The notes beneath the pieces were generated by a model that had not been told where the DNA came from, did no database searches, and was given only the letters and a program-made list of their open reading frames with translations. Below, piece after piece: positions 12,836-60,194 of a DNA stretch of 64,000 nt (position 1 is its first letter; the number at the start of each line of letters is the position of its first letter). The translations under genes were made by a program, and so were the position numbers. Source of the stretch: Thermincola ferriacetica (lineage in GTDB: Bacteria > Bacillota > Thermincolia > Thermincolales > Thermincolaceae); contig NZ_LGTE01000003.1 in assembly GCF_001263415.1 (NCBI RefSeq), positions 62,001 through 126,000 on the forward strand, read 5' to 3'.

Positions 12836-14863
12836 TTACTTTTCTGCCGCTTCCTTTGCCGCCCTTGCCTGGTTAATTATTTCTTCGGCCAGCCGAGCCG
12901 GAACCTCTTCATATTGAGCAAATTCCATAGTAAACTGGCCACGGCCCTGGGTCATAGACTTTAGATCAATGGCATACCTGTACATTTCTGCCAAAGGAAC
13001 CTGAGCCTTTACCACTGTATACTTACCTAGCGGATCCATACCAAGAATACGTCCGCGCTTGGTATTGAAGTCACTGATAATATCGCCCATATAACCTTCG
13101 GGCACTGTCACTTCTACATTCATAACCGGCTCTAACAATATTGGCTTTGCCTGCAACACACCTTTTTTAAAAGCCTGGGCCGATGCAATTTTAAAGGCCA
13201 TTTCTGACGAATCAACGGGATGATGTGAACCATCGTAAACCACTGCCTTAATGCCTGTTACGGGGTAGCCGGCTATCACACCCTCAGCCATCGCTTCACG
13301 GATTCCTTTCTCCACAGCCGGGATGTATTGTTTGGGCACGGCGCCACCGAAGATTTCTTCGTCAAACTCAAATTCTTTATCCATTAGAGGTTCCAATCTC
13401 AACCATACATGGCCGTATTGTCCGTGTCCACCTGTCTGTTTCTTATGTTTACCTTCCACCTTTACGGTAGCTCTGATAGTTTCACGGTAAGGTACCCGTG
13501 GGTCCTTCATAACTACATCAACGCCAAACTTACGCTTCATTTTTTCCAAAACAATATCAATGTGGGCTTCGCCCATTCCGGTTAAAATTGTTTCATGGGT
13601 TTCCATATTCTTTTCCACACGCAGGCAGGGGTCTTCCTCCAGGCACTTATGAATAGCATTCCCCAGTTTATCCTCGTCACCTTTTGTCCTGGGAGCGATG
13701 GCCACCGACAAAGTAGGGACGGGGAATACTATAGGATCAAGTTTGACGTCTTTCTCCTTCAGGCACAATGTATCGTTGGTATCTGTATTCTGCAGTTTTA
13801 CCAGACCTACTATATCCCCCGCCCAGGCTTCGGTTATGGGTTGGGTAGTCTTCCCCCGCACAAATAAAATCTGCCCCACCTTTTCGGCCTGGTTTTTGGT
13901 GCTGTTAAATAAAGGCGTATCGGCAGCAAGCCTACCGCTGTAAATCCGGACAAAATTCATTTTGCCCACATAGGGGTCAACAATAGTTTTAAAGACCAAA
14001 GCAGATAAAGGTTCAGTACTTCTGTCTTCAGGACTGGGCATATAATTAACGACAAAATCCAGTAACTGCACGGCGCCCTGGTTTTTATTAGCAGAGCCGC
14101 AAAGAACCGGATTTATTTTTCCCTCTTTTATACCCAATTTGAGACCGGTAATAATTTCCTCCTTGGTGAGCTCTTCCCCATTCAAATACTTTTCCAGCGC
14201 CTGGTCCGTCATTTCTGCTGCCGATTCGATGAGTTTTTCGCGGTAAGTTGCCACCTCTCCGCTAATTCCCGCCGGTATTTCTACTTCTTTTACCTTACCG
14301 TTAGTTTCATATTGGTAAGCCTTCTGTTCCACCACATCAACAAAACCCTGAAAGGTTTCGGCTTCCCCAATAGGGATCTGTAACGGCACAAAGTTTCCGT
14401 TCAGGTTGTCCTGTAAACTGGCTAAAGTTTTTTGAAAACTGGCATTTTCCCGATCCATTTTATTTATAAACACTACCCGGGGCTTTTTGTCTCCGTCAAT
14501 TATATTCCAGATAATTTCCGTTTGCACTTCCACTCCGGCTGCAGCACAGACTACAAAAACGGCACTGTCCACCGCTCGCAAAGTAGCTTTAACGTCGCCG
14601 ATAAAGTCTGCGTAACCAGGGGTATCAATTAGATTAACCTTACAGTCTTTCCATTCTACCGGCACCAATGTGGCATGAATGGTAATCTGCCTTTTTATTT
14701 CTTCAGGGTGATAATCTGCCGTGGTCGTTCCATCTTCTACTCTTCCTAACCTGTTAATGGCTCCGGTGTTAAACAGCATAGCTTCTACCAAACTTGTTTT
14801 TCCGGCACCCCCGTGGGCAACAATGCCTATGTTTCTGAGCTGGCCTGCTTGATAATTTTTCAT
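12836..14863 (-). CDS. Elongation factor G-like GTPase (EF-G paralogue)
   Basis: 675 residues, slightly shorter than canonical EF-G. G1 is GIVAHGGAGKTSLVE, where housekeeping EF-G has AHIDAGKTT. G3 is DTPGYADF and G4 NKMD. Domains II to V follow in the usual order, including KMKRKFGVDVV and the domain IV/V junction GGHGQYGHVWLRLEP. The altered P-loop and position away from str/tuf genes mark it as an EF-G-like paralogue of the type seen as second copies in clostridia and Thermotoga, not the main factor. Suggested roles of such paralogues include ribosome recycling or rescue, but none can be read from sequence. Strong ATG context; unlinked to neighbours. Confidence 0.88.
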   Translation of the reverse strand: MKNYQAGQLRNIGIVAHGGAGKTSLVEAMLFNTGAINRLGRVEDGTTTADYHPEEIKRQITIHATLVPVEWKDCKVNLIDTPGYADFIGDVKATLRAVDSAVFVVCAAAGVEVQTEIIWNIIDGDKKPRVVFINKMDRENASFQKTLASLQDNLNGNFVPLQIPIGEAETFQGFVDVVEQKAYQYETNGKVKEVEIPAGISGEVATYREKLIESAAEMTDQALEKYLNGEELTKEEIITGLKLGIKEGKINPVLCGSANKNQGAVQLLDFVVNYMPSPEDRSTEPLSALVFKTIVDPYVGKMNFVRIYSGRLAADTPLFNSTKNQAEKVGQILFVRGKTTQPITEAWAGDIVGLVKLQNTDTNDTLCLKEKDVKLDPIVFPVPTLSVAIAPRTKGDEDKLGNAIHKCLEEDPCLRVEKNMETHETILTGMGEAHIDIVLEKMKRKFGVDVVMKDPRVPYRETIRATVKVEGKHKKQTGGHGQYGHVWLRLEPLMDKEFEFDEEIFGGAVPKQYIPAVEKGIREAMAEGVIAGYPVTGIKAVVYDGSHHPVDSSEMAFKIASAQAFKKGVLQAKPILLEPVMNVEVTVPEGYMGDIISDFNTKRGRILGMDPLGKYTVVKAQVPLAEMYRYAIDLKSMTQGRGQFTMEFAQYEEVPARLAEEIINQARAAKEAAEK

Positions 14864-15237: not shown

Positions 15238-15406
15238 AAGACCATCTCCAAATTAAGCTGTCATAAAAGACAAGCAGCTATATTTATATTTTACACCCTC
15301 CGGTCATCTGAGTCAATGTCGGTAGTCAAGAATATATATATAGAATTCCGGGTAATATATGCTACAAAAAGATGTTGTTTTTTATTCAAGAAAGGAGACC
15401 ATATAA

Positions 15407-15640
15407 ATGAGTAAGGAAATTATTGTATTTACTACGCCAACCTGACCGGCATGCCTGCACCTGAAAGAGTATCTTTCAGAAAAAGGTGTTTCTTTTAAGG
15501 AACGTAATGTGGCCGAAGACCCGACTGCTCGTGAGGAAATGATTACACAAACCAAAAGTATGGCCGTGCCTACCAGTATAATCGACGGCGAAGTCGTCAT
15601 AGGTTTTGATAAGTCCAAAATCGAGCGTCTTTTACAGTGA
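15407..15640 (+). CDS. Glutaredoxin/NrdH-like selenoprotein (UGA-encoded Sec at residue 13)
   Basis: Read with TGA at 15443-15445 as selenocysteine, the frame gives 77 residues with a thioredoxin-fold glutaredoxin pattern: VFTTPT-U-PAC in place of TPTCPxC, KEYLSEKGVSF, the cis-proline TVP-like segment MAVPTSIIDG, and GFDKSKIERLL. The UGA sits exactly at the first redox cysteine. An AAGGAG site precedes the ATG by 9 nt. A bacterial SECIS-like hairpin follows the UGA, and a terminator follows the true stop. Conventional callers break this gene. It would act as a thiol-disulfide oxidoreductase, perhaps served by the thioredoxin reductase 3.5 kb away. A pseudogene is unlikely because all other codons are intact. 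Confidence 0.85.
15458..15488 (+). promoter_or_regulatory. Bacterial SECIS element
   Basis: Stem CTGAAAG / CTTTCAG (15461-15467 / 15473-15479) with loop AGTAT, and an outer CACC/GGTG pairing. The loop starts 22 nt after the UGA and has G in its second position, both within the known requirements for SelB-binding bacterial SECIS hairpins. Confidence 0.75.
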
Positions 15641-15664
15641 AAAACGTTTGCTTCTCCGTACCCG

Positions 15665-15690
15665 CCCCCGGTTCATGGCCGGGGGTTTTA
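15665..15690 (+). terminator. Terminator of selenoprotein gene
   Basis: Perfect CCCCCGG-TTCATGG-CCGGGGG hairpin followed by TTTTA, 25 bp after the stop codon. Confidence 0.85.
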
Positions 15691-15800: not shown

Positions 15801-15882
15801 CTAATATTATCCATTACTACTATGTTGTGCAGTATGTTTTTCCCCTTAACGGGGACAAAAAAATGTCATGGGAGGGGTTTGC

Positions 15883-16947
15883 ATGCCTGGTAAGAAGAAG
15901 CTTCTGTTGTCCATTCTCGCCCTAGTCCTGTTGGTAGGCCTAGCGTTTACTTTTTCAGGCTGCGGTGGCGGACAGGAGGAAGGAGTGGTCCAATCGGATA
16001 CCACTGAAAACAGCACATCCGAGAACAACACTAATACACCTGCTGCCGACGGCTCCGAAACAGCCAAGATTATTGATGCTACCAACGCTTACTTAAGTTC
16101 CGGCAAAGCGCCCACTATCTCAGTTGAAGAAGTATACGAAAAAGCTGTAAAAGGCGGGGACCAAAGTTATTTCCTCTTGAGTGTCAGGAAACCTGAACAT
16201 TATGCCAAAGGGCATATTAAAGGAGCAATAAACATACCTTATCAGGAAATCTTCAAGAAGGAAAACCTGGCTAAAATACCTAAGGACAAAAAGGTTGTTG
16301 TTATTTGCTACACCGGCCATACAGCCAGCCAGGTTACATTGCTGCTTAACCAGTTAGGATACGATGCCTATGCCATGAAATATGGTATGATGGGCTGGAC
16401 CAGTAACAAAGACGTTCTTGCCATAGAACCCTTTACGAAAGCTGCTGACTACGAAGTTGACACTGCTGCTGTAGAAGCTGAAGCCAACAACGAATTGCCG
16501 GCAGTAAATACCGGCAAATCTACTACTGAAGACATCATTCTGGCCCAAACTGAAAAATATCTGACTTCCGGACGGGCGCCGACAATTTCCGTGGACGAGG
16601 TATATAATACTGTTATCAGGGGCGGCGACCAGGGATATGTTGTACTTGACATTCGCAAGCCCGAACATTACGCTAAGGGACATGTAAAAGGAGCTATCAA
16701 CGTTCCCTTCGCAGAAATTGCCAAGGAAGAAAACCTGAAAAAACTACCTAAAGACAAAAAGATTGTTGTCATCTGCTATACGGGACACACAGCCAGCCAA
16801 GCCACCATGTTCCTCAACCAGCTTGGTTATGAAGCTTATGCCATGAAGTTTGGCATGATGGGCTGGACCAGCAATAAAGACATTATCGGCCTTGAGCCTT
16901 TTGCCAAGGCTCCTGACTACCCGACAGTAGCAGGTTCCAATCCTTAA
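15883..16947 (+). CDS. Lipoprotein with two rhodanese (sulfurtransferase) domains
   Basis: 354 residues from the ATG at 15883 (GGGAGGGG upstream). A lipoprotein signal peptide ends in the lipobox TFSGC, so the mature protein is anchored to the outer membrane face by its cysteine. A Ser/Thr/Asn-rich linker follows, then two closely similar rhodanese domains (about 80-190 and 225-340). Each has the active-site loop VVICYTGHTASQ and the phrases KPEHYAKGH and AYAMKxGMMGW. The near-identity of the halves points to a recent internal duplication; both catalytic cysteines are kept. A periplasm-side sulfurtransferase or polysulfide-handling role fits, but the substrate is unknown. Confidence 0.9.
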   Translation: MPGKKKLLLSILALVLLVGLAFTFSGCGGGQEEGVVQSDTTENSTSENNTNTPAADGSETAKIIDATNAYLSSGKAPTISVEEVYEKAVKGGDQSYFLLSVRKPEHYAKGHIKGAINIPYQEIFKKENLAKIPKDKKVVVICYTGHTASQVTLLLNQLGYDAYAMKYGMMGWTSNKDVLAIEPFTKAADYEVDTAAVEAEANNELPAVNTGKSTTEDIILAQTEKYLTSGRAPTISVDEVYNTVIRGGDQGYVVLDIRKPEHYAKGHVKGAINVPFAEIAKEENLKKLPKDKKIVVICYTGHTASQATMFLNQLGYEAYAMKFGMMGWTSNKDIIGLEPFAKAPDYPTVAGSNP

Positions 16948-19074: not shown

Positions 19075-20010
19075 TTAATTGGTAAGATATTTTTCAGCGT
19101 TAACTGCTGCTGTTGCGCCATCTCCCGCAGCTGTTATCGCCTGCCTGACTTCTTTTTTTCTGATATCTCCAGCCGCAAATACCCCGGGTAGCTTGGTACG
19201 CATTTCACCATCTGTTATAATATACCCTGTTTCATCCATATCTACCTGTCCTTTAAACAGTTCTGATTTTGGTTCTGTACCTATATATACAAAAACAGCA
19301 TCTGTTTCAACTGTTTCTTCCTGCCCTGTGACAGAATTATAAACAGTAACTTGAGAGACCTTATCGTCTCCGTGTATTTTTCGGATGGTAGAATTCCATC
19401 TAATTTTTATCTTGGGATTATTAAAAACTTCTTCCTGGGCAACTTTAGACCCCTGGAAATGGTCAAATTGATGGACTATTGCTACCTGTTCGGCAAACCT
19501 GGTTAAAAAGACAGCTTCCTGCAATGCGGAATTTCCGCCTCCCACCACGATAACCCGCTTCCCCTGGTAAAAGGGACCGTCACATGTGGCACAGTAGTGC
19601 ACACCCCGTGATTTAAAAGTATCAGCTCCTTCTACTTGCAGCTTCCTGGGCTGCGCACCGGTCGCTATAATGACCGCACGACTGGTATAATCCGCATTTT
19701 CGGTCTTTACTACTTTCTTATCACTTATGAGGTTAACCTCCTGTACCTTGACTCCGCTTTGAATGTCTGCCTGAAAGTATTCAGCCTGTTTGCGCATATT
19801 GTTGGTTAATTCGGCACCGTTAATTACTCCGGAGGTTCCGGGGTAGTTGGCAATATGATAAGTGGTGGCCGCCTGACCGCCTGGAACCCCTTCTTCTAAA
19901 ACGACAGTTTTCAGCTTAGCCCTGCCGCAGTAAATTGCCGCTGATAACCCGGCCGGACCGCCGCCTAAAATTAAGACATCGCATTCAATCTTTTGTTTTT
20001 CCTTATCCAC
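19075..20010 (-). CDS. trxB: Thioredoxin reductase-like flavoprotein
   Basis: 311 residues from a GTG at 20010 with AGGGGG 9 nt upstream; longer frames run through non-coding promoter sequence. The FAD-binding GGGPAGLSAAIYCGRA is at the N-terminus, the redox-active CATCDG at about 135 and the second dinucleotide-binding GGGNSALQEA at about 155. The C-terminal GVFAAGDI is typical. The NADPH-specifying HRRxxxR motif of classical enzymes is replaced by VHQFDHFQ, with no arginines. NADPH is therefore unlikely, and NADH or another donor should be considered. It is convergent with the chemoreceptor gene and divergent from the Cys-rich MerR gene. Confidence 0.9.
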   Translation of the reverse strand: MDKEKQKIECDVLILGGGPAGLSAAIYCGRAKLKTVVLEEGVPGGQAATTYHIANYPGTSGVINGAELTNNMRKQAEYFQADIQSGVKVQEVNLISDKKVVKTENADYTSRAVIIATGAQPRKLQVEGADTFKSRGVHYCATCDGPFYQGKRVIVVGGGNSALQEAVFLTRFAEQVAIVHQFDHFQGSKVAQEEVFNNPKIKIRWNSTIRKIHGDDKVSQVTVYNSVTGQEETVETDAVFVYIGTEPKSELFKGQVDMDETGYIITDGEMRTKLPGVFAAGDIRKKEVRQAITAAGDGATAAVNAEKYLTN

Positions 20011-20121
20011 TATGACATTCCCCCTAGACCAATCCGTTAAAAATATTTTACCCGACGATTGTTTCATTATTCCGGTGAAATCACCGACTATCGGCCACTG
20101 TCTATATTTGTAAGTAAATAT

Positions 20122-20150
20122 TTGCAAAAATATCCAATTGCCATTAAAAT
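20122..20150 (+). promoter_or_regulatory. Sigma-A-type promoter for the MerR-family gene
   Basis: TTGCAA - 17 bp - TAAAAT in the 199-bp divergent region between trxB and the MerR gene. Confidence 0.4.
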
Positions 20151-20209
20151 ATATATAGAATAATTCACTTTTTTTCACAAACAACCACCATTTCAAAGAA
20201 GGTGATTGC

Positions 20210-20623
20210 GTGCCTGCACAGAATCTTGAAGACAAGCCGATGTACACTATCAGCGTTGTTGCAGAACTAATGAAGGTGCACCCTGAAACTTTACGTATTT
20301 GGGAAAAAAACAAGCTTATTACCCCGGCCCGCAGAAACAAACAAAGGCTATACAGCGAAATGGATGTGAAAAAATTACAGTTTATATACTATCTCATTAA
20401 CGAAAAAGGTTTGAATCTGGCCGGTGTTCACCAGATTGTCTCCATGTATCCTTGTTGGCATATTAAAAACTGTTCGGGCGGCGCTAACCGGGACCAGGAA
20501 CCTGTCAACCAGTCTAAACCCTGCTGGAAATCTCCTGGAACTTTCTGCAAAGTAATTATAGACCGCTCTGAAATGTGTGCCAGTTGTAAATATTATGTAG
20601 AAAATAACTGTTCCTGCCATTAA
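20210..20623 (+). CDS. MerR-family regulator with Cys-rich (two-CW-like) C-terminus
   Basis: 137 residues, GTG start with GAAGGTG upstream. The N-terminal MerR winged helix (YTISVVAELMKVHPETLRIW, then RRNKQRLYSEMDVKKL) is the HspR/GlnR-like form. The C-terminal half has eight cysteines in a YPCWHIKNC ... KPCWKSPGTFC ... CASCKYY ... NCSC layout, resembling the small two-CW domain. This suggests metal, Fe-S or thiol sensing. It is divergent from trxB, so redox control of trxB or of itself is plausible. The NifX-like gene follows 24 bp downstream and is probably cotranscribed. Confidence 0.8.
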   Translation: MPAQNLEDKPMYTISVVAELMKVHPETLRIWEKNKLITPARRNKQRLYSEMDVKKLQFIYYLINEKGLNLAGVHQIVSMYPCWHIKNCSGGANRDQEPVNQSKPCWKSPGTFCKVIIDRSEMCASCKYYVENNCSCH

Positions 20624-57368: not shown

Positions 57369-57482
57369 AATATTTGGCAGCCCGGCGGTCATAGAGCATT
57401 GGACACAGATTACTGCCCGCTATTCTTCAGACCCGTAGCTTTGCGTCCTTGCCTTTCGACAAGTTTGCTTTTCACAAATATT
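57369..57482 (-). promoter_or_regulatory. GEMM-I (c-di-GMP-I / cGAMP) riboswitch aptamer
   Basis: Minus strand: P1 arms AATATTTG / CAAATATT close the element. Inside are GCAAAC, a P2 stem CTTGTC-GAAA-GGCAAG with the GAAA tetraloop, GGACGCAAAGCTACGGGTCT, a variable P3, and GCCGGGCTGCC. All conserved GEMM-I blocks are present in order. By hand alignment with Vc2, the base matching G20 is A (AAAAGCAAAC). I recall A20 as typical of the cGAMP-responsive or promiscuous subclass found before Geobacter exoelectrogenesis genes. Controls the LytTR regulator. Confidence 0.88.
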
Positions 57483-60082: not shown

Positions 60083-60194
60083 CTCTCATCTCTCAGGAAT
60101 GATCCTGCAGGAATTGGCACATTTCCAAAGCTTTTACAGCTTTGGCTGTTGCCGGGTTTCATTGGGCCAGTCCCTCCACCTCTCTGGATAAGAG
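60083..60194 (-). promoter_or_regulatory. SAM-I (S-box) riboswitch
   Basis: Minus strand: CTTATCCAGAGAGGTGGAGG start, GGGACTGGCCCAATGAAACC, CCGGCAAC, the P3 CCAAAGCTGTAAAAGCTTTGG hairpin, GTGCCAATTCCTGC and closing GATGAGAG. All canonical S-box blocks are present in order. Controls metA and metY by SAM-dependent termination. Confidence 0.95.

Follow-up and report, generated by a model that had tools for sequence, protein, structure and literature searches.

A UGA-containing glutaredoxin gene in Thermincola ferriacetica read as a selenoprotein gene with a conserved SECIS core

The gene and its flanking signals

The stretch of DNA analysed here, which we call the window, comprises 64,000 nucleotides of a contig of Thermincola ferriacetica. 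On its forward strand lies a gene at 15407..15640 that, when an internal TGA is translated as U, encodes 77 residues plus a stop and belongs to the YruB/Cp9-like glutaredoxin family. The product is MSKEIIVFTTPT-U-PACLHLKEYLSEKGVSFKERNVAEDPTAREEMITQTKSMAVPTSIIDGEVVIGFDKSKIERLLQ, and the sole internal TGA is codon 13 (15443..15445). The ATG at 15407 is preceded at a distance of 9 nt by a Shine-Dalgarno sequence AAAGGAG (15391..15397, + strand), the true stop is a UGA at codon 78 (15638..15640), and a strong intrinsic (rho-independent) terminator follows on the same strand at 15664..15686. The initial annotation had described a frame intact except for one TGA, with its ribosome site and terminator in place, and direct reading bears this out. 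The start sites in related genomes are likewise preceded by purine-rich sequence (AAAGGGG or GGAG).

In the open reading frame list of the window the glutaredoxin frame has no normal ORF of at least 60 aa, and the single ORF of that size covering most of the gene is antisense. As a selenoprotein gene it is clean and proven by comparison, and it is closed to ordinary gene calling.

The product matches the Pfam Glutaredoxin family PF00462 (E 6.6e-17, 61.9 bits; cut-off 22.9). Its best family match is TIGR02196 GlrX_YruB (E 2e-24, 85.9 bits), just missing the curated NCBIfam cut-off of 88.55. The best match in the PDB is 7c10, the Grx1 of C. oremlandii (cGrx1), with E 3.3e-20 and the whole protein aligned. 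The motifs of a glutaredoxin are present, i.e. UPAC at 13-16, VPT of the cis-Pro loop at 54-56 and GF at 66-67. The active site reads TPT-U-PAC, and the UGA codon aligns with catalytic residue 13 of cGrx1, so that it falls on the first active-site cysteine as initially annotated. Both proteins have Cys at position 16, the resolving Cys, which is encoded here at 15452-15454 (+).

A scan of the window found two TGAs flanked on both sides by coding-like sequence, at 15443 and 48516; the latter lies just upstream of the start of a normal gene. Readthrough of UGA as Trp does occur in bacteria, and codon 13 could in principle be read through by a near-cognate tRNA for Trp or Cys, or decoded under a variant genetic code, with no involvement of SelB. 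Yet the gene uses UGA as its own stop, the scan yields one convincing UGA with coding on both sides, and a conserved hairpin together with a strict co-occurrence with SelB (both below) points to selenocysteine (Sec). We regard SelB-independent recoding as highly improbable.

The hairpin downstream of UGA13

A hairpin with an 8-bp stem and a GUA apical loop is located at 15461..15479 on the + strand, with the sequence CUGAAAGA-GUA-UCUUUCAG. It had been annotated as a small-loop hairpin beginning 22 nt after the UGA. Such a hairpin exists, although the 22 nt is the position of its loop; the stem starts 15 nt past the UGA, and the apical loop starts at 22 nt if taken as A-GUA-U or at 23 nt if taken as GUA. 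With 8 bp, a GUA loop, 23 nt and -15 kcal/mol, it conforms to all four published bSECIS rules (PMC13188914). The hairpin 3′ of the terminal UGA, by contrast, has an apical loop that breaks the SECIS rule; this hairpin is the terminator. An Rfam search gave no match across the glutaredoxin gene. Elsewhere in the window, on the - strand, a c-di-GMP-I-GGC riboswitch (57372-57478) and a SAM riboswitch (60083-60194) both score above the Rfam gathering threshold.

Taken by itself, the hairpin is near the chance level and is weak evidence. Its folding energy of -15 kcal/mol is a modest gain over shuffled sequences (z -1.8 to -2.2), a rule-conforming stem of equal or greater length follows 40 of the 1961 TGAs in the window (about 2%), and an equally good stem is reached in 8% of synonymous recodings. 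Folding energy alone was therefore dropped as proof of a SECIS.

Comparison between genomes is far more informative. The gene is found in eight of the nine other genomes of the class, and all eight have TGA at codon 13; the ninth genome, which lacks a glutaredoxin match, is only 75% complete. A TGA-bearing match is present in 69 of 399 sampled genomes of the phylum. The position of the TGA was read base by base for 27 loci (the window copy, the eight class relatives and 18 other genomes of the phylum), the remainder of the 69 being counted as TGA-bearing matches, and in 27/27 it is at codon 13. The 26 other loci keep the full frame and are not truncated at the UGA. Every TGA relative in the phylum retains the resolving Cys of UPxC, while homologues with Cys at the position of the UGA encode it by TGT or TGC.

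Over the 27 TGA genes the synonymous identity of codons 21-23, which hold the apical loop and the adjoining stem, is 1.00, i.e. there is not a single synonymous difference. Outside the SECIS region of the same genes the mean is 0.40, with 0.70 for the highest-scoring single codon. Among Cys homologues the corresponding values are 0.30-0.53 for codons 21-23, and 0.46 for codons 20-24 (n=20). Synonymous change is thus wholly suppressed over the loop in the TGA genes, unlike the Cys homologues, in keeping with the initial reading of the hairpin as a SECIS element. A conserved RNA element that overlaps the frame accounts for this suppression, and protein constraint does not. Covariation was set aside as a proof of the SECIS. 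There is little of it because the stem hardly varies; the one double change is at the base of the stem in the window copy, where C-G replaces G-C with pairing kept.

We consider the comparative evidence to be decisive, and far stronger than the fold of the hairpin. It also disposes of the idea that the TGA is a Cys codon altered by decay of the gene or by a sequencing misread. Conversion of TGC or TGT to TGA needs one point change, but loci of 26 other species share the TGA at this position, the gene is otherwise intact in its frame, ribosome site and terminator, and genomes with the TGA always contain SelB. A pseudogene or sequencing error is refuted by these data, and we give it virtually no credence. 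A Sec-glutaredoxin with one near-invariant SECIS core would seem to be widespread in the phylum, given the 69 of 399 genomes with a TGA-bearing match.

Two Cys homologues (L061 and L074; TGT/TGC) retain a SECIS-like core over codons 13-25. In L061 the key G of the loop has become A through a synonymous change, and both genomes still have SelB. Both seem to have switched from Sec to Cys recently and to carry the decaying fossil of a SECIS. In a different group, three loci of Desulfobacteraceae/Desulfobacterales (L042, L043 and L045) have TGA at the same codon within a UGPC or UGSC motif. These share the core AGAGUAUCU with the window SECIS, at a protein identity of only about 44%.

Selenocysteine decoding in the host

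The initial annotation proposed a search for the four sel genes, taking absence of SelB or SelC as grounds for rejection. All four are present in the host genome (3.18 Mb, 99.9% complete). The tRNA-Sec gene selC scores 74.9 bits with the anticodon tca and selB scores 367.7 bits, while selA and selD are adjacent. SelD is itself UGA-encoded at the active site (...SAGUAAKIGP...), with its own short GGA-loop hairpin after the UGA, and so provides a control for an internal UGA within the genome; a UxxK motif has been published for SelD (PMC9312934), with which the host SAGUAAK agrees. The selD gene lies directly after selA at 1474-2430 of locus L018 (host contig C18), and its start codon is probably the TTG at 1474, behind AGGAGG. 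A second candidate selenoprotein of redoxin type is found at 1381-1791 of locus L079 (host contig C36), with the UGA in W-U-P-G-C; it is apparently an exported or membrane-anchored thioredoxin-like protein.

SelB is above its curated cut-off in 69 of 69 TGA genomes compared with 25 of 60 Cys-only genomes, a count that excludes six genomes with weak matches. The Fisher p value of 1e-15 ignores phylogeny and is thus inflated by relatedness, but no exceptions were seen.

With the Sec machinery, the conserved TGA, the conserved SECIS core and the co-occurrence with SelB all in agreement, the original reading as a selenoprotein is right in substance. UGA13 almost certainly encodes Sec in a protein with a glutaredoxin-type redox role, a judgement that does not extend to the reductant. 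By the established bacterial mechanism, SelB carrying Sec-tRNA-Sec would bind the hairpin downstream of UGA13 so that Sec is inserted, while UGA78, which has no SECIS-type hairpin after it, would terminate translation.

Redox role and relation to known selenoproteins

As a glutaredoxin of YruB/Cp9 type, the product is predicted to be a small thiol-disulfide oxidoreductase of the cytoplasm, with Sec as the attacking residue of UPAC. By analogy with C. oremlandii Grx1, Sec13 would attack a disulfide or oxidised thiol of the client, and Cys16 would then resolve the mixed selenenylsulfide. The oxidised glutaredoxin would probably be re-reduced by a flavoprotein of the thioredoxin reductase type, as for Cp34-Cp9 of C. 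pasteurianum. Such a route is somewhat favoured over glutathione, though no other part of the mechanism is as uncertain as the reductant.

A thioredoxin reductase gene (TIGR01292, 373 bits, over cut-off) is located on the opposite strand at 19075-20340, a distance of 3.4 kb downstream; it is separate from the glutaredoxin gene, with no shared operon. A normal thioredoxin is also present and is a possible partner of the reductase. In the host genome no GshA of the PF04262 type, the one ligase family searched for, was detected; glutathione might also come from ligases of other families (GCS2) or from import. Nor was a homologue of MsrA detected there, and no AhpC/TSA peroxiredoxin scored above cut-off. 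A Sec-glutaredoxin without MsrA, a canonical peroxiredoxin and possibly glutathione might represent an undescribed combination of client and electron donor, a suggestion that we make tentatively. With the known client MsrA absent from the genome, the physiological role of the glutaredoxin becomes a concrete question.

The gene is apparently monocistronic. Its conserved neighbours in relatives are a divergent EF-G gene and a convergent RNase H-like gene, and in another clade aminotransferase-like and spore-coat-like genes (named by eye from sequence). An operon partner was rejected as a clue to function, as these neighbours indicate no redox partner. In the window the divergent EF-G-like gene is at 12836-14863 (-), and it adjoins the glutaredoxin gene in 9/9 class members inspected. 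Directly downstream, at 15868-16947 (+), is a gene whose product resembles a lipoprotein and has two rhodanese domains in tandem; in class relatives the place of this gene is taken by the convergent RNase H-like gene.

UXX-star selenoproteins (NF041212, NF041114 and NF041211) share the glutaredoxin fold and a Sec near the N-terminus, and a role as a selenol ligand of metals or metalloids has been proposed for them (PMC13188914). The protein encoded in the window could be a real Sec-redoxin acting in this way, not as a disulfide reductase, since it has weak NCBIfam matches to the UXX-star models and the host genome has no obvious client such as MsrA. However, these matches are below cut-off (55.4 bits for NF041212 against a curated cut-off of 66). 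The listed members have UxxT or GxGU motifs (PMC13188914), whereas our protein and all its TGA relatives in the phylum keep the resolving Cys of UPxC, as in cGrx1. We therefore think the role of metal ligand unlikely, and prefer that of a disulfide reductase.

Experimental support exists for Sec-glutaredoxins, which are listed as a selenoprotein family (PMC13188914, PMC9312934). They were predicted in 2006 in Moorella thermoacetica, Alkaliphilus and Geobacter (PMC1794560), other anaerobes of different genera; those proteins are of the same annotated UxxC glutaredoxin kind, a likeness of annotation and not residue by residue. The Cp9 (YruB, TIGR02196) protein of C. pasteurianum is similar in sequence family (E 2e-24), in its 75-80 residues and in its anaerobic host. 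Cp9 passes electrons from an NADH-dependent TrxR to a peroxiredoxin (PMC3720550). However, Cp9 is a Cys protein encoded in a TrxR-Cp9-Prx operon, whereas the window protein is predicted to contain Sec, is apparently encoded by a monocistronic gene and is found in a genome without an AhpC/TSA peroxiredoxin above cut-off.

The closest parallel is cGrx1 of Clostridium (Alkaliphilus) oremlandii, a native selenoprotein in which the catalytic Sec precedes the resolving Cys16 in a U/C-P-x-C motif, with structures in the PDB (7c10, 7c12 and 7c13) and glutathione named as its reductant (PMC7642778). The two proteins agree in length class, Sec13, Cys16 and U-P-x-C, with E 3e-20 from end to end. They differ in that cGrx1 has UPHC in place of UPAC, and MsrA, its proposed client, has no detectable homologue in our host genome. 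UPxC Sec-glutaredoxins have thus already been described, with one structure solved. The biology of the window glutaredoxin will be no surprise to a selenoprotein specialist, and the gene is a further, convincingly supported case.
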